Below are positions 2,584 through 60,966 of a DNA stretch of 64,000 nt, piece by piece; the stretch's first letter is position 1, and the number at the start of each line of letters is the position of its first letter. This DNA comes from Buxus sempervirens (lineage: Eukaryota; Streptophyta; Magnoliopsida; Buxales; Buxaceae), in NCBI GenBank assembly GCA_947561395.2, contig OX387184.1, forward strand, positions 32,416,766 through 32,480,765, given 5' to 3'. The notes under the pieces are model-generated. The model worked only from the letters and a program-made list of their open reading frames with translations, was not told where the DNA came from and made no database searches. A program made the translations under genes and the position numbers.

Positions 2584-2772
2584 ATAGCTGGTAGAGGACG
2601 AAGAGCATGAGCTGACATTCTTGTAGAGAGGCCGGATGAGGCCAAGGAGCAGCAGCAAGATGCCCCACCACAGGGTGGTGATATTTGGACTATGGTGGGT
2701 ACCTTGGCAGATCTCTTCACCAGGGAGAGAAATGAGAGGCTGAGCCAGAATGGAAATGGGAATGGAGAAGGA
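2584..2772 (+). pseudogene. gag N-terminus of the outermost chromovirus (broken)
   Basis: Translation from 2584 gives the N-terminal gag segment usual for Tekay/Del-type chromoviruses: a short basic start, an acidic Gln-rich stretch, then a WTMVGTLADLF-like helix. The expected start codon reads ATA and an in-frame TGA occurs at 2608, so it is dead. The frame is cut at 2772 by an LTR insertion that duplicated AAGGA (2768-2772 and 30269-30273). The continuation of the same gag is at 30269-30534. Confidence 0.7.
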
Positions 2773-2851
2773 TGTGAAACCCCGTTCCAATATCCCTAGC
2801 ACACCCTAACCAGTGAGTGTGATATGTAGGTAAAGCTGGAGGAGCCCAATT

Positions 2852-3188
2852 TTGGTGACTGAAGATGATAGTCTTTCTCATATTCCTATTTTGGTGACTG
2901 AAGATGATAATGAAATGTTGAGGAAATGTCCTTCCATGGAAGAAGTCTCTGCTGCTGTGTTTGATCTCTGTCCTGATAGTGCCCCTAGTCCTAATGGTTA
3001 TACAGGTTGGTTCTTTCAAAGTTGCTGGGACATTATTAAAGATGATGTTTTTAATGCTGTAAAAGATTTTTTTGAAGGTGCTGCTCTTCCCTATTCTTGT
3101 ACAACTTCCAACATAGCCCTTATTCCTAAAGTAGATTAGCCATCATCTATTTCTAATTTTAGTCCAATCAGTCTATGCAACTTCTCTT
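2852..3188 (+). pseudogene. LINE reverse transcriptase fragment, part 1
   Basis: This is the 5'-truncated start of an L1-type LINE ORF2. The frame encodes the region before the RT fingers, with words typical of plant LINEs: a DSAPSPNGYTGWFFQSCW segment (known families: APGPDG) and SNIALIPKVD, then a stop (TAG at 3137), then the PSSISNFSPISLCN motif. The reading resumes at 24703 in LYKIISKVLASRL, exactly where the Tat/Ogre element ends. The exact 5' junction with the host LTR (about 2830-2852) and the LINE's own target duplication were not resolved. Confidence 0.85.
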
Positions 3189-4582
3189 TGTGAGACATGG
3201 AAAAAAAATCAATCTAATGATTTCCTCAATCATCACACGGGATTATATAAAACAAAGAGTCGCCACCATTCAATTTAGGTGTGAATGGACACCAAAATAT
3301 TAAATAAGCACAAAAGGCAATTTTAGGGTAAAATATCCCTCCTAAAAAAAACAACCAGAGATGGGTAAGGGGATTAAGTTATGAATAGGGGAAGGTGTTA
3401 GGCACCCCTGTTCATCCACACAAGGTGGTTGCCAGGTATTTGTTCATGTTAAAATAAAGAAAAAAAACTTGCTATAAAAATCACACAAAATCACAAAAAA
3501 GGCAAAAATATATGGTTTTTTTCATATGAATAGTCTGATTGATCCAGAACTATCAAACATGATCATACCATTCCTAGGGTTTCATGATCAAAATAAAATT
3601 GAAATAAAATCAAATAAAATCAATTTAAAGTGAAAAATCCAAAAATCTGGCTTCAAGTCAAATTCTAGAAATCTGGAAAAATATGATTTTTATAAAATAT
3701 TTCAAAATTGAACTTGAATCATCCAGGACATAGATAAAGCCCAAATTTCACATTAAATCTGAAAATAAAAACCAAAAATACCCACGTTGATGAAGAACAC
3801 CAAAAGGGGAGAATTTAGACCGTAGGGTCTTATCTCAAAAGTGAAAAACAATTTAAAAACCACATCATGAAACCCTAGAGTTTACTTTTAGGCTTCTGGA
3901 TCCAGATCTACCATATTGATCATGATAAATCCAAGATCCTAGCCTAAAATCACAAAAATCACGAAAACAGTGCTGTAGGTGCAAAAGTGGCAAAAATCCA
4001 AATTTTATCAAAAAGAGATGATCTCATGCTATAAACATCATAGATTTATGTCATTCATTCAGATATATCATAAAAAGCATTAAAACATGATCAGGATATT
4101 TAAAACAGCCATATCTCACAGATTAGAGCACATGGGGGTCTACCCTACGGATCCACCTGGTCTCTTTTCCCCTAGTTCTCTCTTCACGTTTTACGGCTAG
4201 AGAGACTCTTGAGGTACTTAGAGATAGGTTTGGTTACACAAACACAATCACAGGCCTTATTCTATGAAAAAAAGAAAAAAACAGATATGGGGTTCTATTC
4301 TAGGGATCCACCTGTTCCCCTTTCCCCTAGTTCTCTCTTCACGTTTTACGGCTAGAGAGACCCTTGAGGTACTTAGAGGCAGGTTTAGGAATACGAAAAC
4401 AGATATGGCCTTATTCTACAGCAATAGAGATGATCCTATTACTTCTAGAATTGAAGACAGAAAATAAAAAAGGATAGGGGACTTACCTGGATTGAGCAGG
4501 CAGAGCAGCAGGGATTCCTTTCCTTATCTTGGAGCTTTTGATTCTTCAAAATTTCGTGGCCTTTAGCTAGAGGAAAGAGCCT

Positions 4583-4592
4583 CTATTTATAG
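4583..4592 (-). promoter_or_regulatory. TATA box of the Tat/Ogre LTR (3' copy)
   Basis: The minus strand reads GTCTATAAATAGAGGC, a strong plant TATA context about 400 bp into the LTR. The ACGGGC block lies 190-300 bp upstream. The identical site in the 5' LTR is at 24296-24305. Confidence 0.7.
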
Positions 4593-4777
4593 ACACACCC
4601 AGGGGCATGGTTGGTCCAGAAGGATATATCCGGATTCTCAGGATAGAATGAAATACAGAGATAATGCCCATCCATAGTGGCTTCAGCGAATAAAATACTT
4701 AATTCGCTCGTTTAAAGATATATTGGACTTCAAATAAAGCTCGGAAATCGAGAGGAGGACAAAACTTGCACGTGTCC

Positions 4778-4890
4778 TTAATGCCCGTAAATGCACTACG
4801 GTCCAACGGGGACCGTATAGGTACTATGGGCGCGCCTGCCCGTAGATATTTTGCGGGCGAGATCTGCCAGTGAAGCCAATACGGGCAAAG
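4778..4890. promoter_or_regulatory. ACGGGC/GCCCGT inverted-repeat block (3' LTR)
   Basis: The block is dense in ACGGGC and GCCCGT words, including the imperfect hairpin CTATGGGC...GCCCGTAG. The same kind of block recurs at about 5330-5452, 9910-10048, 21560-21695 and 24491-24603. A regulatory function is inferred only from its position upstream of transcription units. Confidence 0.55.
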
Positions 4891-4989
4891 CCTGTTCTTT
4901 CTATTTTTAGGCTTTTTTCACCTGTTTTAAGCTCTAATTACATGTTTTTATTATTTTCTCATTTGGCAGTGCAATTTGGGGTGTCTACA

Positions 4990-5329: not shown

Positions 5330-5452
5330 AATGCTCTTTTTGGCTTCGCCCATATTTGTCTTACGGACAGATCCTGCCCGTAGAGGTTTCACGGGTGACT
5401 GGGACCGTATGGGTTTTACGGGCGTCTGAAGCCCGTACTGAGTTTACGGATT
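5330..5452. promoter_or_regulatory. ACGGGC block upstream of the antisense PMD gene A
   Basis: Between two non-coding stretches (5004-5330 shows nothing recognisable) lie repeated TACGGACAG, TGCCCGTAGAGG, CACGGGTGAC, GACCGTATGG, TTACGGGCGT and AGCCCGTACT words. These are the same vocabulary as the LTR block. A pyrimidine-rich stretch with TTCTTC and TCTCTTC words follows (5455-5590), as is common near plant transcription starts. No clear TATA box was seen here. It is likely the promoter of the six-exon gene starting at 6788. Confidence 0.5.
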
Positions 5453-6787
5453 TTACTCTCTTCTTAAGACTGCGAACGCGAATTTTTCCTTTTCTGCTCG
5501 CACTTCTGCCCTAATTTCTCTGCGCCCGTATCTTCTCCTACGGTTTTCCCTTCTTCTTCTTCAACAGTGACTTGTCTTCTATTTCCGACGAGCTTCTCAT
5601 TTTCCGGCGACTCTCTTCCTCCGGCGACGACTTGCTCATTCCGGCGACTGTTCCCAGTTCTTGTTCTTCCCCTGTCGTGCCAGTGGTCTTTTGCTTCGGG
5701 TGTTCTTCGAACTTCCTCAACCGACCGTGAATCATCCTTCTTGGAGCTTCGGTAAAGTAAAAGCTTCCCATTTGATTCCTCCATTTCGACTGAACCCAGT
5801 AAGTGGCCGAAATCTCTCTGTTTTTTTTTCTTATGAACAATGTATGCAACAATAAAACCCATGAACGAAATTTTTTTGCTCTTGATTGAATCAAATGTTT
5901 GCTCTGTCTTCCTTAACCTGATTCGATTCGAAATTTCTGTGCTCTTGAATTCTGGAATGATTAAACTTTCCATCATTGGTTTGTGCATCATTGTGACCTG
6001 CTGATTTTTCTTATAGCCGAAATGATGCTTGCATTTTTCTGACTCTTGAATGATTCATTCTTAACCTGTGATATTTACTGATTGTTGACTTTAGTTTGTC
6101 ACTCAGCATGCTTTCGTCAGATTTATAATTCCTCTTTGCCATTGTTAAATTGAGCTCTTTTGTGACTTATTTTGCTCCAATTTTTCTGCCAATGCTCCAT
6201 CTGAACTTAAGCCTTTGAATCCTCAAATTTTTGCTGCCTAGTTCCACACTGCATGATTCTATGACCCGAATACACGATGCTTTGAATAAGTCTTCAAATT
6301 GCTGGGTGTATTCACTGTTGCATCATTCTGATTTTGAACATATACTGCATATGCTAATGTTTCCGTATCCTAACTTCCATGTTTGAACCATGATTGATGT
6401 TCTACCTTCCTCTGATTCTTGAATGGGAATTCCTATCTTTGATTTTTGTTCTGGTTGAATTCCTGCTTTTAGGCCATATTCCTTTTTGGTGAGAACATTC
6501 CATCCCATTACTTTGGCATGAACTCACTGCCTTGATTGCCCTGAAACCAAGTAAAAATACCTGATTAGATATAAAGGAATAAATTAAAATCTCTACACAA
6601 AATATTTCTAGAAAACTATAAACTCCTTCAGTTGATTCTTGATTTGATTAGGAGTATCTGAAGCATTTTCTTCCGTTCTCCAATTTTCCTCTTTTTCTGC
6701 ACATCAATTAATCTTTGTTAAAATAAAAATCGAACAATTAAGAATTTCAACAAGAAATAATTAACATCTCCCTGATTTGAACCGTAG
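5453..6787 (+). promoter_or_regulatory. probable 5' UTR and leader intron of PMD gene A
   Basis: A pyrimidine-rich leader runs to a strong donor GTAAGT at 5799-5804. The next roughly 980 bp are AT-rich and non-coding. They end in ACCGTAG at 6787, an acceptor-like AG directly before ATG at 6788. A long first intron in the 5' UTR is common in plant genes and is inferred here. The open frames on either strand in this stretch resemble no protein family I know. Confidence 0.4.
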
Positions 6788-9708
6788 ATGGCCCGCCTTA
6801 GATCGGCTTCCCGAGATCCTGCAGATGAGCCTTCCTCCTCGAGGGTTAGGCGAGATCCTGCTGATGTGGCCTCGTCTTCGAGGACCGAGAGGGATTCCGA
6901 TTCTGATATCCCAGATTTCCCTTCTGGGGATTCGCGTGAGGCGACCCCAGAGGTATACTCTAACTTTTCTGCAATTTCCTATCCTTTCCCAAAATACATC
7001 TTCCTGATTCTTCAATTATTTTCTTTTAGCCGGCTGTTGAGGCTTCTGGCAGAAATAGGAGCCGTGGCAGACGCAGAGCTGGAGGCAGAGATGGAGGCCG
7101 TGATGAGGGCCATAGAGGAGGCCGCAGAGGGGGCCGTGGCAGGGATGAGGCCAGGACCAGGGTTGAGATCCCTGAGGAGGTGGCTGCCCAGATTAGGGAC
7201 ACCGATCTTCTGCATGGCTTGAGGACTCATCCCTCAGCATGTGTTAGGGCGGATATCCCTTTGGAGTATCCGATGTCCCATTATAGAGGGAGCTGGGCCA
7301 GCTTTACTAGATTCTTGAGAGCTTGCAGTTCGGCCTATCGTCAGGAGCTAGGATTGTACGGTTTCAGCATGTTTATCACCATCCCGGACGTTCGCTTGGA
7401 TCGAGCCCTCATTGCAGCATTATTGGAGAGGTTTTTCCCAGAGACCTTGAGCTTCCACTTCCCAGATATTGAGATTGGGATCCGGCCTTCTGATTTCACG
7501 CTCATCACCGGGATTAGGATGATCGGTGATGTTATTACTGAGATGGTGATGCCAGAGGCCGATGAGATTGCTGGTTATCTCGGATACATTGTGCTGCCTC
7601 CTGAGGCATGGGATCGGGGGAGAGCTAGATTGTCTCTGACATGGTTGAGAGAGACTTTCCGGAGGAGGCAGTTTGGCCAGCTTGCTGCCGGTGACCATGT
7701 TTTCCCATTTGCCTTCCGATTTCTTTTTCTGTATATGATGGGATCCTGCTTCTTCCCAGAGGACACGAATTCAGTTAGTCCTCACTTCTTGAGTCTTTTG
7801 GGAGATTTGCAGCGGGCGAGGAGGTACGCCTGGGGCCCACTCATATTTGGTACTATTCTGGCTGGCCTGCGCCGATCAGTGAGTGGCCTCTCTACTTCCA
7901 GAGGGGCTGGAGTTGGGTGCAGGTTCTTCTGGCCCTTCTTGCAGGTGAAATGTTTATTTCTTTTCTTTTTTTTCCTCTCTTTCTCTTTTCCTTATCTCTC
8001 ATTTTCTATTCCTCTAACTCTTTTCTTATTTTTGTAGTTTTTTGCTAGGGTTTATATACCCTATTTCCGCCCTACCTCTACGATGCCTGAGGAGACGTAT
8101 CCCATGGCACTTAGATGGTGTCATGTAGAGCACGACTCTGAAAAGAGTCGTCCCAGGTCCGCCCGGGCCCACTTGGACAGGTTGTATCGGTCTGAGGTAA
8201 TCTTCTTTAATTCCTCTACTTCTTCTTTTCTTTTCTTCCTGGATCGCATATCTGATGTCTTGTTCTGTTTTTCAGCTATTTGTCCCCAGGATGGAGGACA
8301 TTCATGAGGTGCTAGCCCTGCAGGCAGCCAGAGATGATGCATTTGTCCCTGACCAGAGACGACAGAGATACCAGTTCTTTATTGGTCAGCTGGGCAGCAT
8401 CTGGTATTGCGGTGAGCGCTTCTTCTTTCAGCATGTGGGAGAGCCGCGGATTCCTGCCATCCCGCCAGATACTACTCCTTTCTATCCTCCTATGCCTGTT
8501 GATCCTGCCCAGTTCTTAGATTGGACAGAGGCAGAGACATTATTAGAGGAGGGTGACTATGATGCCTGGTTCAGGCGAGCTTCTGTTGGGTGCCTCATGT
8601 CACCCATGCCTATCCGTGGCGGAGTCATGGAGATAGGAGGGGTAGTGATTAGGGCCTATGACACTACGGTATGCTTTCTTCTTTTGTGATCTTCTATTTC
8701 CATTTCATTAGCATTTTTTCTGACTTCTTTCTTTGCTATTTCAGGAGGCTCAGTTGGCAGAGATCAGGTCTCGCTATGCTGATTTAGAGCGCCAGCGTGA
8801 TGCAGCGATCGCTGAACGGGACGCCCTCTATATCACTATTTCCGATCTCCGGGGGCAGCTAGCCAGAGCCCAGGGCCAGGAGGGTCCATCTGATGCACAG
8901 GACCAGGCGGGTCCGTCTGATACTCAGGTTAATTTCTTCTTTTATTTCCATTCCTGTTTTTGTATTATCCTATCTTGTTCTGACTGAATTTTTTTCTTAG
9001 TTTCAGGAGTACACAGCTGGTCCCTCTTCACCTGCTTCACCCGTGCCTATGCATTTCCGGGATGAGGTGTTTTCTGTGGCACGGGTGGAGTTCGTGACGT
9101 CTCCCAGTCCAGTGGAGGTTCCTGCAGCAGAGCCCGAGGTCGAGGCTGATATTGTACCTGCTGCTGAGGACGTGCCAGAGTCTGCCCCAGTAGCTGAGAC
9201 TGCTCCTGCTGCATCTGCTGATATAGATATAGATTCGGCTATGGATGCCGCTGGGGTAGAGCCTACCATGGAGACTGCAGTGATGGAGGAGGCTACCGCT
9301 GATCCTGTAGAGCCCGAGGTGGAGATGGCTGCTACTGAGCCTGTGGAGCCGGAGGTTGATGTACCTGGGACATCGGCTCCTGCTGGTCCTGTTAGTCCTG
9401 ATATGGAGGATGCGGAGGTGACACATGCTGCTGTTGATCCTTCTGCGGATTCTTCCCGTACAGAGTCCGATCCCGATTCTACGGGATATGTAGATACTTC
9501 AGGGTACGTCCCTCCTGATCATCCCACTGCTGGCCTTGTGCCTTTATATATGTGGCATGATATTCAGTCTGTTTTGAGCAGGATTACGCGTAGCACGGCC
9601 CGCAATGTTGTGCGGCATGTCTTTGAGCGCAGGCGATCTACAGGCCGTGGTCGAGGCAGAGCACGAGGCCGTGGCCGTAGGAGCGGACCTGCATGGCCAT
9701 TAGATTAG
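6788..9708 (+). CDS. PMD gene A: plant mobile domain-like protein, six exons, antisense to the element
   Basis: Joining 6788-6952, 7030-7944, 8038-8196, 8276-8668, 8745-8927 and 9007-9708 gives 838 aa without a stop. All five introns (76-93 nt) have GT...AG ends, pyrimidine-rich 3' ends and phase 0. Residues about 60-90 are an RG/GGR-rich, RGG-box-like stretch. Residues about 110-420 look like a plant mobile domain (PMD, as in MAIN/MAIL proteins and in transposons). Key words are ALIAALLERFFPET, the RPSDFTLITGI helix, the RRYAWGPLIFGTILAGL segment and YPMALRW near its end. Residues 545-590 form a coiled coil, 606-770 are acidic with Glu-Pro-Val, and the tail (about 815-832) is RG-rich again. 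The start is the ATG beside the acceptor-like AG at 6787. It lies antisense to pol, between the 3' LTR and gene B. Its function is unknown; PMD proteins such as MAIN and MAIL1 act in transposon silencing and meristem maintenance. It could be an element-borne ORF or an old host capture. Confidence 0.75.
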
Positions 9709-10163
9709 GATTCTTCCATGTACCTTTGTATTTTTTGGTAAAAGTGATGTAAACATTCATGTATATAAAAGAAGTTTGATTTATTTCCATTTGTGTTCTT
9801 TCTTCTTTATTTATAGTATTTATTACCTCATGAATGTTAAACAGGGACAGGTGAAGCTTAGGGAAACAAAGGAAATTAAAAATTCCCATTTTTTTGCATT
9901 TTTTCGAAGGAACCGTATTTATACTACAAGCAAGCCGTGCCCGTAAAATTACTACGGGCGTACCTTGCCCGTGAAGTTTGCACTGTCAGGCGTGTCCGTA
10001 ATACCTATACGGGCACGCTTTGCCCGTAATATAATTACGGAATTTACTGCCTTGCGATTTTTTCTATATAAACTCCTAGGGAACGTCATTGTGACACTTT
10101 TATTGGTTGGAAAACTCCCTGAGCACGTCTTTTCTCGCTTTCCTTGGCTTCTTTGGCGCTTCC
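9709..10163 (+). promoter_or_regulatory. intergenic region and promoter of PMD gene B
   Basis: After the gene A stop comes AT-rich sequence, likely its 3' UTR. An ACGGGC/GCCCGT block follows at about 9910-10048, with TACGGGC...GCCCGTA hairpins. A clear TATA box, CTATATAAAC, is at 10064-10073. A start about 30 bp downstream would give a 5' UTR near 65 nt before the ATG at 10164. This is the most convincing promoter in the element because block, TATA and ATG are tightly spaced. Confidence 0.65.
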
Positions 10164-11976
10164 ATGGCTTCCCCTACGCCGCTTTCTCCTGCCATTGAAT
10201 CTCCTCCTGCAAGACAACCTGTTAGATCAAAACCTCCTAATCTTACCAGGTACAATATTGTGGATTCCTTTTATGATAGATGGGTTAACTCCATGACCCT
10301 TGATGAGGAGATTCGTTGGGATTCCATTCACTTAGGGCACATCCTACACCTCCCTAAAATTCCCTTTAAGTGGGAAATCATTGAAGCTTTGATAGGCCAC
10401 TGGGTACCTGAGCTGAATCTCTTCCGTTTTGATGACAAAGAGATGACTCCCACCATAGAAGAGATTGAAACCATCCTTGGCCTTAGATTTTCTGAAAAAG
10501 TTGTGAACCCACCCCTAAAGCTTAGTTATAAAAAAGAGGCTTCCACTTTCTTGGGTATAGGGAAGAAGGACCTAGGAAATTCTGATGCACTATTGACCTT
10601 GTCCAAGACCTTTTTGACTGAAAAACTTCTGAGGAGTAATGACAAGGACTCTAGGTTTAATGCATTGACCCTGGTAGTGGTCAATCAGCTGCTTTTTCCA
10701 CGGGGTGATGACCAGGTTGACTTGGCTCTTATCTCAGTTATCTGTCAGGTTAGGGAACGCGAGAGGTTGGCCCCTATGATCCTAGCAGAGATATATCAGG
10801 CCCTTACTGACTGTTATTTCAGGAAGAAGAAACGCTTCCTTGCCTGCGCCCCTATCCTACAGGTAAAAAATATGCATATATATTTTTTCTTTTTTCTTTT
10901 TTTTCTTTTTTATTCTTTCTTTCTTCTTCTTTTTCTTCTCTCTGCCTTTTCTTCTTCTTCTTCTTCTTTTCTTTTTCTTTCTCTTTTTTTTTTTTTTTTT
11001 TTTCTTTCTCTTCTTTTTCTTTTTTTTTTCTTTTTTTTTTCTTTTTTTTGGAAATAAATTGAAATACTTCCTTTTTCTGCAGCTTTGGCTACTTGACCAT
11101 CTTAGCCAGGTTGAAGAAATAACTCGCCGCTTCTTTCCTAGATTGAAAGTTCCTGTTCTGATGAGCAATAGGGGATGTCCTAACATCCAAGGTGGCAAGC
11201 AAGGCTGGTTCACTTTCTTGGGTACTCTCCAGGATGATCAAGTGAGATGGCCTGGCACTTATCAGCCCACTCCAGAGACGGTGATCAGCTTTAGAGATAA
11301 AAACTTTCTGGTCTTAGCAGGCTTGAAATCTGCTGTTCTCTATCTTCCTTTGAGGGTTCTTCGGCAATTTGGAGCGACTCAGGGAATTATGATTCCCACA
11401 GGTTATGAGAACTTTGTAGGGCCACTTACATCAGCCACCATGGGGCTAAATGCTCAATTAATGAAAGAGTGGTCCTATGTTTGCTTTCTGCGGGGTCCAG
11501 TCTTTTCTGAGTCCCATGTGAAGGACTATCACTTTTGGATCAAAGAACAGGTGCAGAGTCATGCCCCAGTACCAGAGGATCCTCCTGCAGTTCTTCCTCC
11601 TACCTATGAAGATATTCTGGAGTTAGAAAGGGCAACCCATAAACGGCTTCAACAAATATGGGTACGGGAGGCTCAAGAACTTAGGATAAAAGTTCTTTTT
11701 CTGGAGAGGCAGCTTGAAGAGCAGAAGTCTGGCCGCATTGCCATGGAGAAGAAGCTTGAAGAACAAAGGCAGGCTCGTCGCTTTGAAGTCCGTGTGATGC
11801 GGAAGAAGTATCAGGATTCCTTGGCTGACCTTAGGGCGTTGAAGATCAAGCTTTCTTTTTCAGATGAGGTCATCTCCTTTTTGAGTGATCCTGATGCAGA
11901 GGGTGCTTCTGGAATCATTGCAACTCAGGCAGCTAGGATTAGGGAGCTTGAGGAGCAGTTAGGGAGTAGGGATTAG
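10164..11976 (+). CDS. PMD gene B: PMD/DUF7745-like protein with coiled coil, two exons, antisense to the element
   Basis: Exon 1 (10164-10862) and exon 2 (11083-11976) join in phase 0 to give 530 aa. The 220-nt intron has GT...AG ends and an extreme T/C run ending CTTTTTCTGCAG. ATG 10164 is the first in frame after the TATA box. Residues about 30-130 contain a W-x-I-x-E-A-L-I-x-x-W-V-P-E segment followed by EMTPTIEEIETILGLRF. This is the arrangement of PMD-related DUF7745 proteins: a helix that ends in a W/F-P element, then the 'PT-EE' motif. Exon 2 starts LWLLDHL, then carries the VLYLPLRVLRQFGATQG motif typical of that group. Residues about 410-525 are a long charged coiled coil. The gene lies head-to-tail with gene A and convergent with pol (961 bp between stops). 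Its biochemical role is unknown. The open frame argues that it is used or very recently used. Confidence 0.72.
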
Positions 11977-12937: not shown

Positions 12938-15900
12938 TCATGGAAAATATCTCTTTACTGCATCAGAGTTAATTGGCTCAGGAAAATCCTTCCCATCCAT
13001 TTCTGTTAAGATGAGAGCACCCCCTGATAGAACTTTCTTGACCACATAAGGTCCTTCCCAATTTGGTTTGAACTTTCCACGAGGATCTTCCAAAAAAGGT
13101 AAAATCTTCTTTAATACCAAATTTCCTTCTTGGAAGGTTCTGGGCTTCACCTTTTTATTGTAAGCCCTGGCCATCCTCTTCCGATATAATTGGCCATGAC
13201 TAAGTGCCTTCAAACGTTTTTCTTCTATTAAATTGAGTTGATCATGTCTTGATTGTATCCATTCAGCTTCTTCTAATTCTGCTTCCATTAGCACTCTTAA
13301 TGAAGGTATTTCCACTTCCACTGGTAAAACTGCTTCCATTCCATAGACTAAGGAGTATGGGGTTGCCCCTGTAAAAGTCCGGATTGAGGTTCTGTAAGCA
13401 TGTAGAGCAAGTGGAAGCATTTCATGCCAATCTTTAAAACTCACCACCATTTTCTGAATAATCTTCTTTATATTCTTATTCGCTGCTTCCACTGCCCCAT
13501 TCATCTTTGGTCTGTAAGGCGCTGACTTGTGGTGGGTAATCTGAAATTGTTCACACATCTTCCTCATGTCTTTGTTCTTAAGGTTTGAAGCATTGTCTGT
13601 TACTATGGCACTTGGCAAACCATAGCGGCAAATGATGTTGTGCTTCAAAAACTTAAGAACATGGCTACTTGTAATGTTTGCATATGAAGCTGCCTCTACC
13701 CACTTGGTGAAGTAATCAATAGCTACGAGTATAAATCTATGTCCATTTGATGCCTTTGGAGAGATCATGCCAATGACATCTATACCCCACATAGAAAAAG
13801 GCCACGGAGATGTCATACTGTGTAATTCACTTGGGGGTGCATTCTTGTTATCTGCGTACACTTGGCATAAATGACACCTTTTAACGTGCATATAGCAATC
13901 ATGCTGCATAGTTGACCAGTAATATCCCAATCGCAGGATCTTCTTGGCAAGCATATGCCCATTCATATGGGGTCCACACACTCCTCCATGTATTGTTTCA
14001 ACTATCCTTTCTGACTCAGTTTTTGCAACACATCTAAGTAGTATATCATTGTGTGATCTTTTGTACAACTGCCCACCACTTAGTAAGAACTGTCCTGCCA
14101 GCCTCTGTATTGTTCTTTTCTCTGTAGAGGTGACGTTTTCTGGTAAAGTTCGATCCTTTAGGAAGTTCTTAATGTCTTGAAACCATGGTACTTCTTCTTC
14201 TGGGGTTTCTTCTAGAACAAGGCAGTAAGCTGGTTCATCCCTGACTTCAATTTCCAATGGTCTAATATCAACCCCTTCTGGCATACTGACCATTGAAGCC
14301 AATATTGCCAGAGCATCTGCGAACTGGTTTTTGGCCCTTGGCATATAATTGAAGGAAATTCGAGTAAACTTGGTGCTTATTTCTTCCAAATACTGGTGAT
14401 AGGGGATCAATTTGTGATCCTTGGTTTTCCATTCACCAGTTGTTTGGAAGATGAAAAGACTCGAATCCCCATATACGTCAAGTTCCTCTACTTCATGGTC
14501 TAAGGCTGCTTGTAACCCAATTATGCATGCTTCATACTCTGCTATATTGTTCGTGCATTGGAACCTTAACTTCACTGCGATCGGGATATGTGCCCCATCT
14601 GGCTTGATCAATACAGCCCCTATTCCATTTCCATTCATATTGGCGGCCCCATCAAAAAACATTTGCCATGAGCTTTCACCTTCTTCCTCTTCAGCAAACA
14701 GGATTGCCTCATCAGGGAAGTTGGTCTTTAAGGGTTGGTATTCTGGTAAAGGGTGTGCAGCCAAGTGATCTGCAATAGCTTGACCCTTAATGGCCTTCTG
14801 TGTGATATAGGTGAGGTCAAATTCAGAGAGTAACAACTGCCACTTTGCTGTTCTGCCAGTTAAAGCTGGTTTCTCAAATAGATACTTCAAAGGGTCCATG
14901 CGGGATATCAATAAGGTGGAATGACTAAGGAAATAGTGCCTTAGTCTCTGAGTTGCCCATACTAAAGCACAACAAGTCTTTTCCAATGGAGAGTACTTTG
15001 CTTCATATTCTGTAAATTTCTTACTCAGGTAGTAAATCGCCCTCTCCTTTCTGCCTGTATCGTCGTGCTGTCCTAAGACACACCCCATTGATGTCTCCAA
15101 AACAGACAAGTATAGGATTAGTGGCCTTCCTGGAGTTGGTGGTACTAGCACAGGTGGGTTTAATAAGTATTCCTTTATTGTGTCAAAGGCTTCTTGGCAC
15201 TCATCATTCCAGACTGTCGGGTTATTCTTTCTTAGAAGTTTGAAAATTGGTTCACAGATAGCGGTGAGCTGTGCTATGAACCGGCTTATGTACTGAATCC
15301 TCCCAAGAAAACCCCGAACTTCCCTCTCGGTTCTAGGTGATGGCATTTCAATGATGGCTTTAGCTTTAGCTGGATCAATCTCAATTCCTCTTCTGCTTAC
15401 TATAAAACCCAATAATTTTCCTGATGTAGCCCCAAAGACACACTTAGCAGGGTTAAGCCTTAGACTGTATTTCCTAAGCCGGTCAAATACCTTCTTCAAG
15501 TTGATCAAGTGGTCTTCTTCCTCACATGATTTGGCTATCATATCATCCACATAAACCTCCATCTCCTTATGGATCATATCATGGAATAAGGCTGTCATGG
15601 CCCTCTGGTAGGTTGCCCCAGCGTTCTTAAGTCCAAATGGCATGACAGTGTAGTGGAAGGTACCCCAAGGGGTGATAAAGGCTGTCTTCTCTTGGTCTTC
15701 CTTAGCCATCTTAATCTGATTATACCCAGAAAACCCATCCATGAATGAGAATAGACTATGTACAGCGGTGTTATCCACCAAGATGTCTATGTGTGGAAGT
15801 GGAAAATCATCCTTTGGACTTGCCTTATTCAAATCTCTATAATCTACGCACATTCTGACCTTTCCATCCTTCTTTGGTACTGGCACTATATTTGCAAGCC

Positions 15901-18900
15901 ATTCGGGGTATGTGGACACTGCTAAGAATCCAGCTTGGAATTGCTTAACCACTTCATCTTTAACCTTCAATGTCCAATCAGGTTTTAACCTTCTCAGTTT
16001 CTGCTTAACTGGCTTAGAGTCTGGTAGAATGGGTAGCCTGTGCACCACCATATCTGTGTCTAACCCCGGCATATCCCGATACGACCATGCAAACACATCT
16101 TCATAATCAGCCAAAAATCGTATCATTTCATCCCGCTGTACCTCAGATAGACATACCCCAATATTCACTATTTTTGGGTCATCTTCGGTCCCTAGGTTGA
16201 TTGATATGGTCTCTTCAATATTGGGTTGGACCCCCTTTTCATGACGCTCTAATTGATATGTGATTTCTTTTGGAACGTCGTCTTCTTCGTCCTCGGTCTC
16301 TTCTTCCACCCCCATTAGGCCAAAGTCGAGCTCAAGGTCGAAGTCATACTCATCCTGATCCAATTCCGTTTGCTTATATGGTTCATAAATGGTTTGGATC
16401 TTTTTGAAAACTTTATCTTTTCTAGAAAAAACTGAAAAATCTTTTTGTGTTTTTTGAGAGCCTTCTACAAAATCTTTCCCTGAAGACGAAGGCTCATTAA
16501 AACCTTCAGGAAAAGGGCATTCCACTAATGGAGTTTTTTTTTTTTTGGAAGCCATGTCTGTTTGCCAAACAAACGCGGCTTCAAAAGTAAGGGGAGTTTC
16601 CTCCCAATTATTCAGAATGAAAGAATCTGGGGCAGGGATACAAGCCTGCTCCTCAAGTTCAGGATCTGCATCTGAGATCACCAGTACTGGGTGAGTTTCA
16701 TTGCCTGCTTCTTCGGTAGGGCTAGTTCCAGATGGAACTTCTACTGCAGCCCAATCAATAAAAGGTAGCTCCTCTGCTACTTTTTCTTGGTCGCCTTCTG
16801 TCATGGCAAAGAATGCCCCTACGTCCTCAGAAGAGTCCTGCTCCTGTTCTGTCTGTGGCCCAGGCCCACCAGATGCTTGTGGAGGTGGAACACATGGTTG
16901 TATTGTGGAGGGTTTGGGTTTCTGGAATGGGTTGACATTGTAGTATGGAGGTTTAGACTGATCCTCAGGAGGAGACAGCTGAATCATGTGAGACAGCTTA
17001 GGAAAAGTTTCCCTGATGTGCAGGAATTTCATTGCTTCTATCTGCCCCTGTCTTCTCCATTTCCTTGGCTTGGACCCCAATCCTGCTCTGTGAACCATCT
17101 TCTTAACCTGAACTGGTTCTATCCTTCCTTGTAGGTTAATCCCCAGACCTTTTCCAGGGTGAAAATGGTACTTTTCTAATACATTTTTGACCATTTTTTC
17201 AGCACAGGTCAATTTTCCTTCTTTTTGCTGATACCCCCCAGGTATATAATTCACAGCTTCAAATTGAAAAGAGTGAAACGCCATTTTATCTGTTGTCATT
17301 TCCGTGTTAATACAGGGTACATCAGGGGACCACATGGGGGGAACCAAGTTTTCGGCCAGGACGGTAATCACCTTTTGCCCTCTAATGTATTTGACTCTCT
17401 GGTGGAGGGTAGATGGTATGGCCCTAGCTGTATGAATCCACGGCCTTCCTAGGAGTAGGTTGAAGGCTGCAGGTATATCCATCACTTCAAATGTGATGTT
17501 GAAAATATACGGTCCAATTGTAACCGGCAGTTCAACCTCCCCTAGGGAGTGTGTTTTAAAGCTGTCAAATGCTCTTATAATTCTTCCATTTTGTTTTATT
17601 TTGTTTCGCTCCAGATTGAGCTTAACAAAGGTTATCAATGGGCAGACATTGAGAGCCGACCCATTATCAATCAAGACCCGGGCTATCATGCAACCCTTAC
17701 TGAGTACAGCTATGTGCAATGGGTCAACATGATGGTACCCTGCTGGACTAATTTCGGTTTCAGAAAAGGTTATGACATTATGGGATAAAATTTGACCAAC
17801 CATCCGGCCTAGTTGGTATGGTTCAATGTTTTTAGGCACATGGGCCCCCTGGAGTATCCTTAACAAGGAGTCCCTATGTTTTTCTGAATTTAACAATAGT
17901 CCCAGAATTGAGATCTGGGCAGGGACTTTGTTCAACTGCTCGATGACATTGAACTCACTCTTTTTTATTACCTTCATGAGGTCAGCAGCCTCACTGTTAG
18001 TTACCTGAGGGGCCTCTTCCCCTACTTTGGCCTTGCCTTTATTTATTTCTTCTTCTTTATCCTTCTCTGTTTCTTTCTGTTTTTCTTCCACCCCTACACA
18101 CTTTCCTGACCTCATCATAAGGTTTACTTCTTCCTTGCTTTCAACTGCAGGGCATGTAGTGGTAAATGCTTCACTGTAGTTCCATGGTACAGCCGATTCA
18201 ATGTAGGAAGGCTTAGGGACATTCACCACCAATGGGGGAAGTTTGGACTTAGCGATGGAAGTCTGAGTAATAGGAACATTAACAACCAATGGAGGAAGTT
18301 GTTTTGGTTGGGGGTTTGCAGAAGTGACTGATGCACTAAGGGGGTCACAATTTATGACCAATGGTGGCTTAGACTGAATGGGCGGAGTAAAAGTGGATGA
18401 ATGGCAATTAATGACCAAAGGTGGCTTGGTGATGTTCATCTGGGCCATGAGGGATGAAACTCGGTCCAAAGATGAGCTAATGTTCTTTGCAGCACTATCA
18501 TTCCCCTTTGAAATCATATTTATTTCTTTACCTTCACTTTTTCTGTCAAAATATACTTTGACCGTTGTCCCTATGGGAGCAATTAATTGAGATGGGTCAA
18601 AGGTTATTTTGTCAGAAGAGATGACTCCTATGACATTAGATGGGCCTGCCCCGTGATGCTGGGGCAGTGGGTTTTGTCCAATATCTGTTCTTGGAGGATT
18701 GGAAGCCCCTGTATTGAAAGACAGGGTATTCTGGTCTAGTAAATCCTGAATGGCATGTTTCAAAGGCCAGCACTTGTCTGTAGGGTGCCCAGGTGCACCC
18801 ATATGGTAATCACAAGTGGTGGAGGGGTCAAAATTTCTCCCCTTAGATGCATTCGGATTAGGTTCTCTTAAGGTGATATACCCTCCTTGCAATAAAGTGG

Positions 18901-20155
18901 GCAGCAATTGAGAGGGAGTCATTGGAATAGGGGTGAAAACCCTATTTCTCCTTGCTGCAAAATAGGCATCCTTTTCCTCCTTAGTAAAAACCCTTTTTTT
19001 GTCTGAAGATGCTGCTGGAACATTAACCCTCATAGGGGCCTGGGTAGGTGGAGATGGAGTAGGAAAATGAGCGGGTACGTTGATTTGTATGGGCTTGTTA
19101 GGGCCAGATGGTGGCTGTACCATGTTTACCTCACCCTCCTTCTTGTTCCCATTCTTTTTTGTTCCGCTTCCTTTCTTTAGGTTGGGGTCCTGCTGGCTAA
19201 CCATGGCAGAGTGGTCAATTATCTTACCTGACCTTATTCCATCCTCAATTCGGTCAGCCACTTGAACCAAAGCTGCAAAATTAGTGGTGGTCTGACCCAC
19301 CAAGTGGCTGTAGAATGGTTGACCCAAAGTGCTTATGAAAGTAGAAATCATTTCCTGTTCTAGCATGGGTGGCCTGACCTGGGAGGCCGTCTCCCTCCAT
19401 CTCTTGGCATATTGCCTTACAGTCTCTTCTCTTCCTTTGCTCATTCTCATGACGTCATACCTATCTGGCATGATCTCTGAATTGAACCGGTATTGAGTTA
19501 GGAATGCATCAGCTAGGTCCTTCCATCTTTTGATCTTTCCATGGTCTAGAGTAGCAAACCATCTTAATGCGGTTCCAGTCAGGCTCCTTTGGAAAAGTTG
19601 GATTAGAACACCTTCATCCTGCCCAAACTGGCATAGGGCACCACAGTATAACTTTAGGTGGCTCATAGGGCACCCAGTGCCATCATACTTGTCCAAGTCT
19701 GGGCACTTAAACTTGGCCGGCAGGTTAACATTGGGGTATAGGCACAGGTCTTCAAAATTGGTGCCTCCAAAGTTGTTTACCCCTTTGACTTCCCTAAGTT
19801 CATCTTGGATCATTTCTAGCTTATGCATGAACTTTCTTTCAACCTCTTCCCTTATCCTTTCCTTTTCCATAGCCTTGTTTGATTCAGCTGTCTCATCCCT
19901 GGTCAGTATAGGTTCAGGGGTGGGTTCATAGACGGGTTCATGAGTTGGTTGCACTGGAGGTGGAACATTGACTTGGGGTGGAGGTGCAGGGTTGGATGTG
20001 GATGCCTGGTTCTGGGCCTGCATTTGTTGGGCCTGCACTTGTTGGGCCTGTACTGACAGTATGTTCTCTAGCATTCGGGCTAGTCCTGCCACTTGTTCTT
20101 GGAGTAGAACGACATCTGGATGAGGAGCATCAACTTCATCTTCAATGGGATTCAT
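12938..20155 (-). CDS. gag-pol: Tat/Ogre gag-pol polyprotein (intact)
   Basis: One open frame of about 2405 aa from the ATG at 20155. The frame stays open upstream to 20281 but lacks an earlier ATG. Order (approximate residues): gag 150-315; a gag finger-like CDYH...H....C at 448-463; aspartic protease with LIDNGS at 825; a G-patch-like GKGLGINLQGR at about 1000; reverse transcriptase 1400-1590 with YVDD at 1533; connection RNase H 1675-1800; archaeal-type RNase H 1829-1950 starting FFDGAA; integrase zinc domain (HMNGH...CHLC) 2055-2095; and integrase core with D near 2121, D in TDNAS near 2187, E in VEAANK near 2226. The dual RNase H and DNGS protease are Tat-lineage marks. Gag, protease and pol share a frame, with no stop or intron between protease and RT such as classical Ogre has. 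All catalytic residues I could check are present, so the copy looks competent. Confidence 0.92.
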   Translation of the reverse strand: MNPIEDEVDAPHPDVVLLQEQVAGLARMLENILSVQAQQVQAQQMQAQNQASTSNPAPPPQVNVPPPVQPTHEPVYEPTPEPILTRDETAESNKAMEKERIREEVERKFMHKLEMIQDELREVKGVNNFGGTNFEDLCLYPNVNLPAKFKCPDLDKYDGTGCPMSHLKLYCGALCQFGQDEGVLIQLFQRSLTGTALRWFATLDHGKIKRWKDLADAFLTQYRFNSEIMPDRYDVMRMSKGREETVRQYAKRWRETASQVRPPMLEQEMISTFISTLGQPFYSHLVGQTTTNFAALVQVADRIEDGIRSGKIIDHSAMVSQQDPNLKKGSGTKKNGNKKEGEVNMVQPPSGPNKPIQINVPAHFPTPSPPTQAPMRVNVPAASSDKKRVFTKEEKDAYFAARRNRVFTPIPMTPSQLLPTLLQGGYITLREPNPNASKGRNFDPSTTCDYHMGAPGHPTDKCWPLKHAIQDLLDQNTLSFNTGASNPPRTDIGQNPLPQHHGAGPSNVIGVISSDKITFDPSQLIAPIGTTVKVYFDRKSEGKEINMISKGNDSAAKNISSSLDRVSSLMAQMNITKPPLVINCHSSTFTPPIQSKPPLVINCDPLSASVTSANPQPKQLPPLVVNVPITQTSIAKSKLPPLVVNVPKPSYIESAVPWNYSEAFTTTCPAVESKEEVNLMMRSGKCVGVEEKQKETEKDKEEEINKGKAKVGEEAPQVTNSEAADLMKVIKKSEFNVIEQLNKVPAQISILGLLLNSEKHRDSLLRILQGAHVPKNIEPYQLGRMVGQILSHNVITFSETEISPAGYHHVDPLHIAVLSKGCMIARVLIDNGSALNVCPLITFVKLNLERNKIKQNGRIIRAFDSFKTHSLGEVELPVTIGPYIFNITFEVMDIPAAFNLLLGRPWIHTARAIPSTLHQRVKYIRGQKVITVLAENLVPPMWSPDVPCINTEMTTDKMAFHSFQFEAVNYIPGGYQQKEGKLTCAEKMVKNVLEKYHFHPGKGLGINLQGRIEPVQVKKMVHRAGLGSKPRKWRRQGQIEAMKFLHIRETFPKLSHMIQLSPPEDQSKPPYYNVNPFQKPKPSTIQPCVPPPQASGGPGPQTEQEQDSSEDVGAFFAMTEGDQEKVAEELPFIDWAAVEVPSGTSPTEEAGNETHPVLVISDADPELEEQACIPAPDSFILNNWEETPLTFEAAFVWQTDMASKKKKTPLVECPFPEGFNEPSSSGKDFVEGSQKTQKDFSVFSRKDKVFKKIQTIYEPYKQTELDQDEYDFDLELDFGLMGVEEETEDEEDDVPKEITYQLERHEKGVQPNIEETISINLGTEDDPKIVNIGVCLSEVQRDEMIRFLADYEDVFAWSYRDMPGLDTDMVVHRLPILPDSKPVKQKLRRLKPDWTLKVKDEVVKQFQAGFLAVSTYPEWLANIVPVPKKDGKVRMCVDYRDLNKASPKDDFPLPHIDILVDNTAVHSLFSFMDGFSGYNQIKMAKEDQEKTAFITPWGTFHYTVMPFGLKNAGATYQRAMTALFHDMIHKEMEVYVDDMIAKSCEEEDHLINLKKVFDRLRKYSLRLNPAKCVFGATSGKLLGFIVSRRGIEIDPAKAKAIIEMPSPRTEREVRGFLGRIQYISRFIAQLTAICEPIFKLLRKNNPTVWNDECQEAFDTIKEYLLNPPVLVPPTPGRPLILYLSVLETSMGCVLGQHDDTGRKERAIYYLSKKFTEYEAKYSPLEKTCCALVWATQRLRHYFLSHSTLLISRMDPLKYLFEKPALTGRTAKWQLLLSEFDLTYITQKAIKGQAIADHLAAHPLPEYQPLKTNFPDEAILFAEEEEGESSWQMFFDGAANMNGNGIGAVLIKPDGAHIPIAVKLRFQCTNNIAEYEACIIGLQAALDHEVEELDVYGDSSLFIFQTTGEWKTKDHKLIPYHQYLEEISTKFTRISFNYMPRAKNQFADALAILASMVSMPEGVDIRPLEIEVRDEPAYCLVLEETPEEEVPWFQDIKNFLKDRTLPENVTSTEKRTIQRLAGQFLLSGGQLYKRSHNDILLRCVAKTESERIVETIHGGVCGPHMNGHMLAKKILRLGYYWSTMQHDCYMHVKRCHLCQVYADNKNAPPSELHSMTSPWPFSMWGIDVIGMISPKASNGHRFILVAIDYFTKWVEAASYANITSSHVLKFLKHNIICRYGLPSAIVTDNASNLKNKDMRKMCEQFQITHHKSAPYRPKMNGAVEAANKNIKKIIQKMVVSFKDWHEMLPLALHAYRTSIRTFTGATPYSLVYGMEAVLPVEVEIPSLRVLMEAELEEAEWIQSRHDQLNLIEEKRLKALSHGQLYRKRMARAYNKKVKPRTFQEGNLVLKKILPFLEDPRGKFKPNWEGPYVVKKVLSGGALILTEMDGKDFPEPINSDAVKRYFP

Positions 20156-20401: not shown

Positions 20402-21415
20402 GTCCCACAAAAGAGAGAAAGGTCTGAAATTCAAAGGCTTTCAGAGGCCCGTGTTTTTTTTTTTTTTTTTTTTTTAAGGGTCTGAAATTCAGAGGCTTTC
20501 AGAGGCCCAGGGATATTTTTGGAAAAGGTCTGAAATTCAGAGGCTTTCAGAGGCCCAGGGATGTTTTGATGAAAGTCTGAAATTCAAAGGCTTTCAGAGG
20601 CCCAAAAGGAAAAGGTCTGAAATTCAAAGGCTTTCAGAGGCCCAAAAGTTCTGAAATTCAAAGGCTTTCAGAGGCCCAAAAGAAAAAGATCTGAAATTCA
20701 AAGGCTTTCAGAGGCCCAAAAGTTCTGAAATTCAAAGGCTTTCAGAGGCCCAAAAGAAAAAGGTCTGAAATTCAAAGGCTTTCAGAGGCCCAAAAATTCT
20801 GAAATTCAAAGGCTTTCAGAGGCCCAAAAGAAAAAGGTCTGAAATTCAAAGGCTTTCAGAGGCCCAAAAGTTCTGAAATTCAAAGGCTTTCAGAGGCCCA
20901 AAAGAAAAAGGTCTGAAATTCAAAGGCTTTCAGAGGCCCAAAAATTCTGAAATTCAAAGGCTTTCAGAGGCCCAAAAGAAAACGGTCTGAAATTCAAAGG
21001 CTTTCAGAGGCCCAAAAGTTCTGAAATTCAAAGGCTTTCAGAGGCCCAAAAGAAAAAGTTCTGAAATTCAAAGGCTTTCAGAGGCCCAAAAGAAAAAGGT
21101 CTGAAATTCAAAGGCTTTCAGAGGCCCGGAGTTTTTTGAGAAAAAGTCTGAAATTCAAAGGCTTTCAGAGGCCTGGGGTTTTTTGAGAAAAAGTCTGAAA
21201 TTCAAAGGCTTTCAGAGGCCCAGGGATTTTTGAGAAAAAGTCTGAAATTCAAAGGCTTTCAGAGGCCCAAGATTCTTTGAAAAATCTGAAATTCAAAGGC
21301 TTTCAGAGGCCCAGGATTTTTTTGAAAAATCTGAAATTCAAAGGCTTTCAGAGGCCCAAGAGTTTTGAAAAAGTCTGAAATTCAAAGGCTTTCAGAAGCC
21401 CAAGGAACCTTTCTC
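20402..21415. repeat. tandem hairpin repeat, about 24 copies
   Basis: About 24 copies of a core TCTGAAATTCAAAGGCTTTC plus AGAGGCCC, separated by short A/G-rich spacers of varying length (unit about 33-50 bp). Each core has a perfect 7-bp inverted repeat, TCTGAAA...TTTCAGA, around a 9-nt loop. Copies in the middle (20,600-21,100) are almost identical and often alternate between two spacer types, which suggests expansion of a dimer. It lies in the untranslated leader of the element RNA. Confidence 0.9.
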
Positions 21416-21559
21416 TCACATTTTTTCCTTTTAATTATTTTTTTTTTGTTTTTTGTTTTTGAAGCATTTTATTCAAACTTGTTTCCCTTTATCATTATTT
21501 AAAGGTTAAAAGAATATTTTAGTGGGAAAAACTGATTAAAGTTGAATATTCCGAAGAAA

Positions 21560-21695
21560 CCGTATACACAGTACGGTCCAGCGCTGCCCGTATTGAAATT
21601 ACGAGCCTGCCGTGACCGTATGCAATCCACGGGCGAGCCTAGCCCGTATGACTAATACGGGCAAGCCCAGCCCGTGTACCAAATGCGGTTTTACG
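21560..21695. promoter_or_regulatory. ACGGGC block in the leader
   Basis: Contains ACCGTATACA, TACGGTCC, TGCCCGTATTG, GACCGTATGC, CACGGGCGAG, AGCCCGTATG, TACGGGCAAG and AGCCCGTGT in 135 bp, matching the LTR block in vocabulary. It sits between the primer site and the hairpin array, on the gag-pol side. A role as a second promoter or enhancer is inferred. Confidence 0.5.
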
Positions 21696-22881: not shown

Positions 22882-22899
22882 TCCCCAGCAGAGTCGCCA
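22882..22899 (-). other. primer binding site of the Tat/Ogre element
   Basis: The minus strand reads TGGCGACTCTGCTGGGGA, two bases inside the 5' LTR end (CTCACA). Ogre and related Tat elements are reported to prime with an Arg tRNA, and this sequence fits that class by recall. Confidence 0.8.
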
Positions 22900-60920: not shown

Positions 60921-60966
60921 CTATTCACTTTGAATTGATATACATAGTGTGATCTAGATCTATAGC

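Follow-up and report, generated by a model that had tools for sequence, protein, structure and literature searches.

Matched palindromic arrays in a Tat-lineage retrotransposon of Buxus sempervirens with two plant-mobile-domain genes: hints of a private control switch

Two spliced plant-mobile-domain (PMD) genes lie antisense to gag-pol within one LTR retrotransposon of Buxus sempervirens, which raises the question of what such genes may do for the element that carries them. Plants and plant transposons commonly carry PMD genes, and the host versions of these proteins contribute to transposon silencing. The window analysed is a stretch of 64,000 nucleotides, of which positions 3189-24702 form a minus-strand Ty3/gypsy element of the Tat lineage, 21.5 kb long, with one gag-pol open reading frame and the two genes, PMD1 and PMD2. 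Boundaries and gag-pol side are as follows.

22902..24702, minus strand: 5′ LTR, 99.67% identical to its partner LTR over 1802 aligned bases
24293..24304, minus strand: LTR TATA box (TATAAATAGAGG), from sequence
22882..22899, minus strand: PBS-like sequence TGGCGACTCTGCTGGGGA, 2 bp past the 5′ LTR
20469..21404: tandem repeats of the 5′ leader, 47/48- and 74-bp units containing TCTGAAA...TTTCAGA
12938..20155, minus strand: gag-pol, a single 2405-aa open reading frame with gag, G-patch, RT, RNase H, second RNase H (RVT_3) and integrase
3189..4989, minus strand: 3′ LTR, from the LTR pair alignment
3184..3188, partner at 24703-24707: target-site duplication CTCTT, from sequence

The LTRs show 6 mismatches in 1802 aligned bases, and the element is a recently inserted Tat-lineage LTR retrotransposon. 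gag-pol runs from an ATG at 20155 to a stop codon at 12938, and both PMD genes are situated on the plus strand between gag-pol and the LTR at 3189-4989. Near-identical LTRs, antisense genes and a PMD pair belonging to the element had all been proposed in a sequence-only reading of this locus, and all three hold. Pol carries a second, archaeal-type RNase H (RVT_3, 1834-1950) besides RT_RNaseH (1675-1779), as is characteristic of the Tat clade. The order is RT, RH, RVT_3, rve; a second RNase H between RH and INT is, in the account of PMC6317226, the criterion for the Ogre or Retand branch of Tat.

The predicted gene structures are:

5799..6787, plus strand: possible 5′UTR intron of PMD1, GTAAGT donor and AG right before the ATG, inferred from sequence
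6788..6952, plus strand: PMD1 exon 1
7030..7944, plus strand: PMD1 exon 2, first half of the PMD domain
8038..8196, plus strand: PMD1 exon 3
8276..8668, plus strand: PMD1 exon 4
8745..8927, plus strand: PMD1 exon 5
9001..9708, plus strand: PMD1 exon 6, RG-rich C-terminus
10065..10072, plus strand: PMD2 TATA box (TATATAAA), 22 bp beyond the PMD2 array
10164..10862, plus strand: PMD2 exon 1
11083..11976, plus strand: PMD2 exon 2

PMD1 (6788-9708) has the six exons, canonical introns (GT-AG, all phase 0) and open frame ascribed to it before, except that the joined protein is 840 aa and not 838 aa; PMD2 (10164-11976) joins in two exons to 530 aa, as described. The terminal stop is the sole stop in each joined frame, while base-shuffled coding sequences give means of 33 (PMD1) and 29 (PMD2) stops and never fewer than 16 in 500 shuffles of either gene. 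Profile searches with curated cut-offs (PMD, PF10536; DUF7745, PF24924) show both genes to be PMD-type, as had been supposed. PMD1 matches PMD (1.3e-23, score 84.2, cut-off 34.9), and PMD2 matches DUF7745 (1.3e-30, score 107, cut-off 26) and PMD (8.5e-20, score 71.6, cut-off 34.9). Joining the exons raises the scores over those of single open reading frames, from 65.8 to 84.2 bits for PMD and from 75.1 and 17.2 to 107 for DUF7745, which supports the splices predicted from sequence and homology. PMD2 has 14 homologue matches, twelve of them named from Solanum; no PMD1 homologue appears among the 8000 candidates scored per search, no solved structure matches PMD2 or the PMD1 core at E <= 1, and no relatives were found in viral_contigs.

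Comparison with other copies in the genome indicates that both PMD genes are under selection, dN/dS being well below 1, the test that the sequence-only reading had named: 0.05-0.14 for PMD2 and, from three of the four copies, 0.11-0.43 for PMD1. These copies (C14, C12, C3, C8) were chosen by PMD2, not by arrays, and are ranks 2 to 5 of the PMD2 exon-2 matches; PMD2 exon 2 is therefore selected for protein likeness, a bias that touches exon 1 and PMD1 less. In one copy of the four (L057), PMD2 exon 1 contains a stop. The exon-2 search scored only the best 132 of 5853 candidates, the window's own copy included, which biases the sample toward intact copies; by eye, 120 of these 132 are without stops and 12 are not. 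Intactness among these best matches accords with selection. The pair itself had been thought unusual, and this did not stand: a genome search found PMD matches paired on the same strand, at a distance of about 3.4 kb, in 12 further places (by eye, among 117 matches), and rarity of two PMD genes per element is rejected.

Palindromic arrays also occur in the element at four places: in the LTR, in the leader, and upstream of PMD1 and of PMD2. They are built from a 7-bp half-site, GCCCGTA/TACGGGC, whose orientation alternates every 14 bp.

24496..24599: 8-half-site array in the 5′ LTR U3, with the LTR TATA box 191 bp downstream
21558..21676: 9-half-site array in the 5′ leader
9939..10042: 8-position array upstream of PMD2, one position degraded in the window's copy; present in 4/4 other copies
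5348..5451: 8-position array upstream of PMD1, whose ATG follows after 1336 bp; present in 4/4 other copies
4783..4886: 8-half-site array in the 3′ LTR, two half-sites unlike the 5′ LTR copy

The fourth PMD2 half-site (CACTGTC) is assigned by position and counted. In the LTR, PMD1 and PMD2 arrays alike, the one 13-bp step falls from position four to position five. Genome-wide, a three-site pattern gives 17,918 matches, overlapping ones counted, versus 0 for the reversed control. Among 32 runs (loci L009-L038) there are 144 steps of 14, 11 of 13 and 0 of 15; these 30 loci were picked by the three-site pattern and several overlap, which biases both step counts and site conservation. The seven-row LTR comparison covers loci with the given LTR start, which leaves L018 and L036 (LTR match by blast) outside. 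Arrays are also present in loci with short open reading frames only. The flanks of four array-bearing LTR loci (L043, L048-L051) show no match to the element interior, and that of L044 shows LTR-like matches only; array-bearing LTR loci of this kind may be solo LTRs.

In all five copies examined, the LTR, PMD1 and PMD2 arrays are present. Across them 15/168 half-site columns vary versus 49/144 spacer columns (p = 4e-8). Against the flanks (75/545) the half-sites are not significantly less variable (p = 0.11), and the spacers are more variable, which means that the array region turns over fast. The leader array was compared with those of two gag-only elements, chosen by their LTR arrays, which have no match to RT, RNase H, integrase or PMD and retain LTR and leader arrays. 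Identity to the window's array is 96% and 98% in half-sites and 82% and 80% in spacers; when the two gag-only elements are compared with each other, spacers (96%) and half-sites (95%) are equally conserved.

A sister element at C1:3441494-3464309 (boundaries computed) carries GTATCCGG-N9-CCGGATAC arrays at the same four places, different from the window element's in both motif and spacing. Its PMD2 array has seven half-sites by scan and an eighth position (TTCGGATAT) read by eye. No GCCCGTA array occurs in the stretches scanned, 8 kb of the gag-pol side in L045 lying outside the scan, and gag-pol was not seen there as one open reading frame over 1500 aa. Each PMD2 exon is 79% identical between the two elements; PMD1, compared codon by codon in exons 2 and 4 only, is 53% and 46% identical, with saturated synonymous sites (pS 0.78-0.79). 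The faster divergence of PMD1 could simply be weaker constraint. Replacement of the motif at the same places, as observed across two element families with one sister element, hints at a private control switch.

One further PMD pair, L039, adjoins a gypsy-type integrase. Its PMD genes have no array of this kind upstream in the 10 kb read, and the sole array at the locus sits in an LTR 92.5% identical to that of the sister family. Since this LTR is sister-like and the integrase region is 35% identical to the window's, L039 was dropped as an owner of the GTATCCGG array; the array-holding LTR may be a separate insertion.

The reading tentatively preferred here treats the arrays as operators recognised by a factor specific to the element, for which PMD1 together with PMD2 is a plausible candidate; VANC anti-silencing would be a close analogue. 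The element would then encode a private regulatory circuit in which a complex of element-encoded proteins binds the arrays cooperatively. The faster-changing PMD1 would supply sequence choice in the complex, and the slower-changing PMD2 would have a conserved partner role, as in the host MAIN-MAIL1 pairing. Once bound, the LTR and the two PMD promoters would be switched on or freed from silencing, and the outcome would be a self-feeding, family-specific loop of anti-silencing or activation in the manner of VANC on VANDAL. It had been guessed earlier that the PMD genes may aid expression of the element or alter silencing; the shared promoter arrays point that way. A general form, rather less likely than not, is that in some Tat retrotransposons a two-protein PMD regulator reads family-specific palindromic operator arrays at every element promoter, operator and PMD1 changing together between families as a private, self-activating anti-silencing switch.

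A rather doubtful, though serious, alternative is that host transcription factors bind the arrays: a different one would have been drawn to the LTR in each family and its site used again upstream of the extra genes, with the PMD proteins doing something else. The great abundance of the motif genome-wide and the arrays in loci with short open reading frames agree with this, as does a Sirevirus parallel, palindromic CGG-CCG motifs that in a PLACE comparison are mainly stress-related factor sites in the account of PMC2829016. However, the change of factor would be needed at four places in the element, and it would be a coincidence that PMD1 is the more diverged PMD protein.

That the arrays are hairpins in genomic RNA or DNA cruciforms, serving for example packaging, small-RNA control or recombination, is unlikely. 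Three of the four arrays fold far more stably than shuffles (z -4.8, -5.7, -6.8), but the PMD1 array does so little (z -1.6; 12/200 shuffles as good). Half-sites i and i+3, with i of the TACGGGC type, covary strongly, pairing at 6.46/7 versus 5.89 in shuffles (sd 0.105; 35 pairs, related sequences). Neighbours, again in related sequences, covary weakly (6.09 versus 5.95, sd 0.056; 6.02 versus 5.87, sd 0.071), whereas in the window's own arrays they show no covariation (92/112 pairs versus 91.4 expected). All four array types would be present in the RNA if a transcript spans LTR to LTR. Folding stability and half-site covariation thus leave a hairpin function some probability; the strict 14/13-bp spacing and the PMD2 array 22 bp before a TATA box suit DNA binding instead. 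It is quite improbable that this is a Tat element of the ordinary kind, with antisense PMD eORFs as in its relatives and with arrays that are functionless by-products of repeat turnover: PMD is present in 57% of Ogre elements in the account of PMC6317226 and the spacers turn over fast, but half-sites and their spacing persist as the spacers diverge, matched arrays occupy four places in each of two families, and the reversed pattern is absent genome-wide.

Ogre/Tat elements with PMD eORFs were reportedly described by Steinbauerova in 2011. As PMD in Ogre is published and PMD pairs recur in the genome, the pair alone is not new; the palindromic arrays shared by LTR, leader and PMD upstream regions appear to be. 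The function of the PMD domain is still called unknown in the accounts of PMC7156037 and PMC9289625. The two families, with their PMD pairs and clearly different matched arrays, offer a ready test of own array versus other array. If each pair binds its own array only, PMD proteins gain a function as sequence-specific DNA regulators. The operator reading, if true, would extend sequence-specific anti-silencing from VANDALs, which are MULE DNA transposons, to LTR retrotransposons, and would bear on the origin of host MAIN/MAIL1 from such regulators.

Among known systems, the element resembles Ogre/Tat elements with PMD eORFs, as portrayed in the accounts of Neumann 2019 and Ikeda 2017, in its second RNase H, PMD-type gene and long internal region. 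It differs in a single gag-pol open reading frame, versus the two typical of Ogre, and in two spliced PMD genes; those accounts, as far as available, make no mention of promoter arrays. Sirevirus LTRs, in the account of Bousios 2010 (PMC2829016), also have palindromic clusters upstream of the TATA box and of an extra gene, with a motif that varies between elements. That gene is env and Sireviruses are Ty1/copia, whereas here the integrase follows RT and RNase H in a Tat-type pol; the same account, as available, describes no strict 14-bp lattice of alternating motif boxes and mentions neither a matched switch with an encoded regulator nor any PMD. The VANC system is alike in its element-specific short motif clusters in non-coding regions, and there the encoded protein evolves with its targets, according to the accounts of Hosaka 2017 (PMC5735166) and Sasaki 2023 (PMC10398659). 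Binding and demethylation are experimental in those accounts and would be predictions here, where the proteins are PMD/DUF7745 in a Ty3/gypsy element, not VANC. With host MAIN and MAIL1 the element shares the PMD domain and a set of two PMD proteins, which interact in the host case (PMC7156037); in the accounts available (PMC5418596, PMC7156037) those are PMD-C clade genes of the host and silence elements, whereas PMD1 and PMD2 are borne by the element itself.

The matched promoter arrays of the window element, a 21.5-kb Tat-lineage Ty3/gypsy retrotransposon (window 3189-24702, minus strand), are a more interesting feature than its pair of spliced plant-mobile-domain genes, PMD1 and PMD2. The arrays are palindromic runs of alternating 7-bp half-sites, and two of the promoter arrays are found within 5330-11976, the interval flagged in the sequence-only reading.

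Features of the window element (window positions)
3189-4989 and 22902-24702: LTR pair, 6 mismatches in 1802 aligned positions
20155-12938, minus strand: gag-pol, single ORF of 2405 aa, with gag, G-patch, RT, RNase H, second RNase H (RVT_3) and integrase
4783-4886 and 24496-24599: array in LTR U3, heptamer GCCCGTA/TACGGGC
5348-5451: array 1336 bp before the PMD1 ATG, ahead of a possible 5'UTR intron
9939-10042: array upstream of PMD2, with a TATA box 22 bp further on
21558-21676: array in the leader, heptamer GCCCGTA/TACGGGC

Half-site orientation flips at each 14-bp step, and the LTR, PMD1 and PMD2 arrays all have a single 13-bp step, from the fourth position to the fifth. The LTR TATA box follows 191 bp downstream of the LTR array. 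The window holds 20 exact heptamers versus 1.6 expected from simulated sequence. A search of the genome (676.5-Mb assembly, 247 contigs; the window is C4:32416766-32480765) for three phased half-sites gave 8931 + 8987 matches, and the reversed control 0. Between the arrays of the element, half-sites share 80-88% identity and spacers 24-52% (26% expected by composition).

Four further copies, picked by PMD2 coding sequence, all show the same layout of LTR, PMD1 and PMD2 arrays, with some half-sites degraded. Over the five copies, variable columns amount to 15/168 in half-sites, 49/144 in spacers and 75/545 in flanks. Half-sites differ from spacers (p = 4e-8) and spacers vary more than flanks (p = 2e-7); the difference between half-sites and flanks is not significant (p = 0.11). 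Two gag-only elements of ~10 kb, L041 and L042, retain the LTR and leader arrays, but tblastn with RT, RNase H, integrase and PMD proteins finds nothing in them. Their leader arrays compared with that of the window show 96% and 98% identity in half-sites, 82% and 80% in spacers and 92% in flanks for both; L041 versus L042 gives 95%, 96% and 94%, respectively.

Other array variants are also present. The LTR array of one locus (L038, 1501-1632) has 10 half-sites, apparently via a 28-bp duplication. At L026 and L040 (C1:4538194-4544330), sets of GCCCGTA arrays recur at intervals of ~5.1 kb; the DNA between them has short ORFs only, and the whole may be a non-autonomous LTR element from a different family. 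The same array match recurs at C1:8895623, 8956650 and 9017701, spaced 61 kb, which suggests a large tandem duplication.

CTCTT borders the LTR pair on both sides. With substitution rates of 6.5e-9 to 1.3e-8 per site and year, the six LTR mismatches give an insertion age of ~0.13-0.26 million years. Because the second RNase H sits between RH and INT, the element is placed by its domain order among the Ogre/Retand members of the Tat clade, following the criteria of Neumann 2019 (PMC6317226), with gag-pol as one ORF and not the Ogre-typical two. The G-patch domain occupies gag-pol residues 989-1028, between gag and RT. The leader also carries tandem repeats (20469-21404; 47/48- and 74-bp units, dyad TCTGAAA...TTTCAGA), matched in L041 and L042 as well, which are a possible second motif array. 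A GTAAGT donor-like site (24199, minus strand) follows the LTR TATA box, and an AG (20209, minus strand) comes just ahead of the gag ATG; the two could delimit a long leader intron. To the left of the element a LINE reverse-transcriptase-like reading is seen by eye (2717-3142) and to the right a Pfam zf-RVT domain (25669-26541); a LINE may have been its insertion target. An 891-aa ORF at 60958-63633 displays Copia-type gag and pre-integrase.

The sequence-only reading was correct in its observation of two PMD genes antisense to gag-pol and in their exons, although PMD1 is 840 aa and not 838. All five PMD1 introns are phase 0, and joining exons raises the profile scores. PMD2 exon 2 has at least 132 genome matches including the window's own; among these, the best 132 of 5853 candidates, a choice that shapes both count and intact share, 120 are stop-free. 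Nearly all matches apart from the window's own are 97-98% identical, one 99%. Compared with three or four further copies, PMD1 exons 2, 4 and 6 have dN/dS of 0.11-0.16, 0.20-0.22 and 0.31-0.43, and PMD2 exons 1 and 2 of 0.05-0.14; PMD2 exon 1 is interrupted by a stop in one copy of the four. These values, 0.05-0.43 in the copies read and so well away from the neutrality that would have counted against the reading, indicate purifying selection on both proteins.

The rarity claimed for the pair is wrong. Among 117 PMD matches scored in this genome, 12 further same-strand pairs, ~3.4 kb apart, were counted by eye. In the one read (L039), both genes are antisense and adjoin an integrase region with 35% identity to the window's. 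Surveys report PMD in 57% of Ogre elements (PMC6317226), PMD clades A1 and A2 as gypsy-only (PMC5418596), and PMD, G-patch and AIR1 as the commonest extra domains (PMC9289625).

A related PMD1-PMD2 element, the sister, shows no GCCCGTA array within the stretches scanned. Its motif consists of GTATCCGG-N9-CCGGATAC palindromes with a period of ~39 bp.

Features of the sister element
C1:3441494-3464309 (computed boundaries): element, own LTRs identical over 2271 bp
LTR array: 8 half-sites; leader array: 6
PMD1 array, 1235 bp before the PMD1 ATG: 4 half-sites
PMD2 array, upstream of PMD2: 7 half-sites by scan plus one more by eye; a TATA box follows

Array scans of both elements thus demonstrate a motif switch between two families: motif and spacing differ and the four array places are the same. 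A further sister-type LTR (L044) carries three GTATCCGG palindromes. Splice positions and the exons examined agree, and the sister PMD1 exon 2 is still recognised by the PMD profile. Identity to the window element is 77% in gag-pol and 79% in PMD2 exons, 53% in PMD1 exon 2 and 46% in exon 4. PMD2 differs mainly synonymously (dN 0.13-0.14, dS 1.2-1.8). PMD1 synonymous sites are saturated (pS 0.78-0.79); this gene may therefore be a module that is older or has been exchanged.

We infer that a candidate factor specific to the element recognises the arrays. Of the two PMD proteins, the more diverged PMD1 would be the strongest candidate for choosing the sequence, and PMD2 for acting as a conserved partner. 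Among host PMD proteins, MAIN is known to interact with MAIL1 (PMC7156037).

Host factors reading the arrays are a serious rival, since in Sireviruses palindromic CGG-CCG clusters occur upstream of both env and the LTR TATA box (PMC2829016). The arrays may also function as hairpins: shuffled sequence folds much less well than three of the four, and across related arrays there is covariation between half-sites three positions apart and, slightly, between neighbours, but neighbouring half-sites show no covariation in the window's own arrays.

The literature searched, which takes in a minority of subscription-journal papers, gave no report of such arrays in Tat/Ogre elements, nor any linking PMD proteins to such arrays. 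Anti-silencing use of MULE-captured PMD is a speculation of Ikeda 2017 (PMC5418596). VANC proteins show that a plant transposon can encode a factor that recognises clustered motifs in the element's non-coding DNA and lifts silencing (PMC5735166). The Sirevirus clusters (PMC2829016) are the nearest precedent met for the arrays of the window element.
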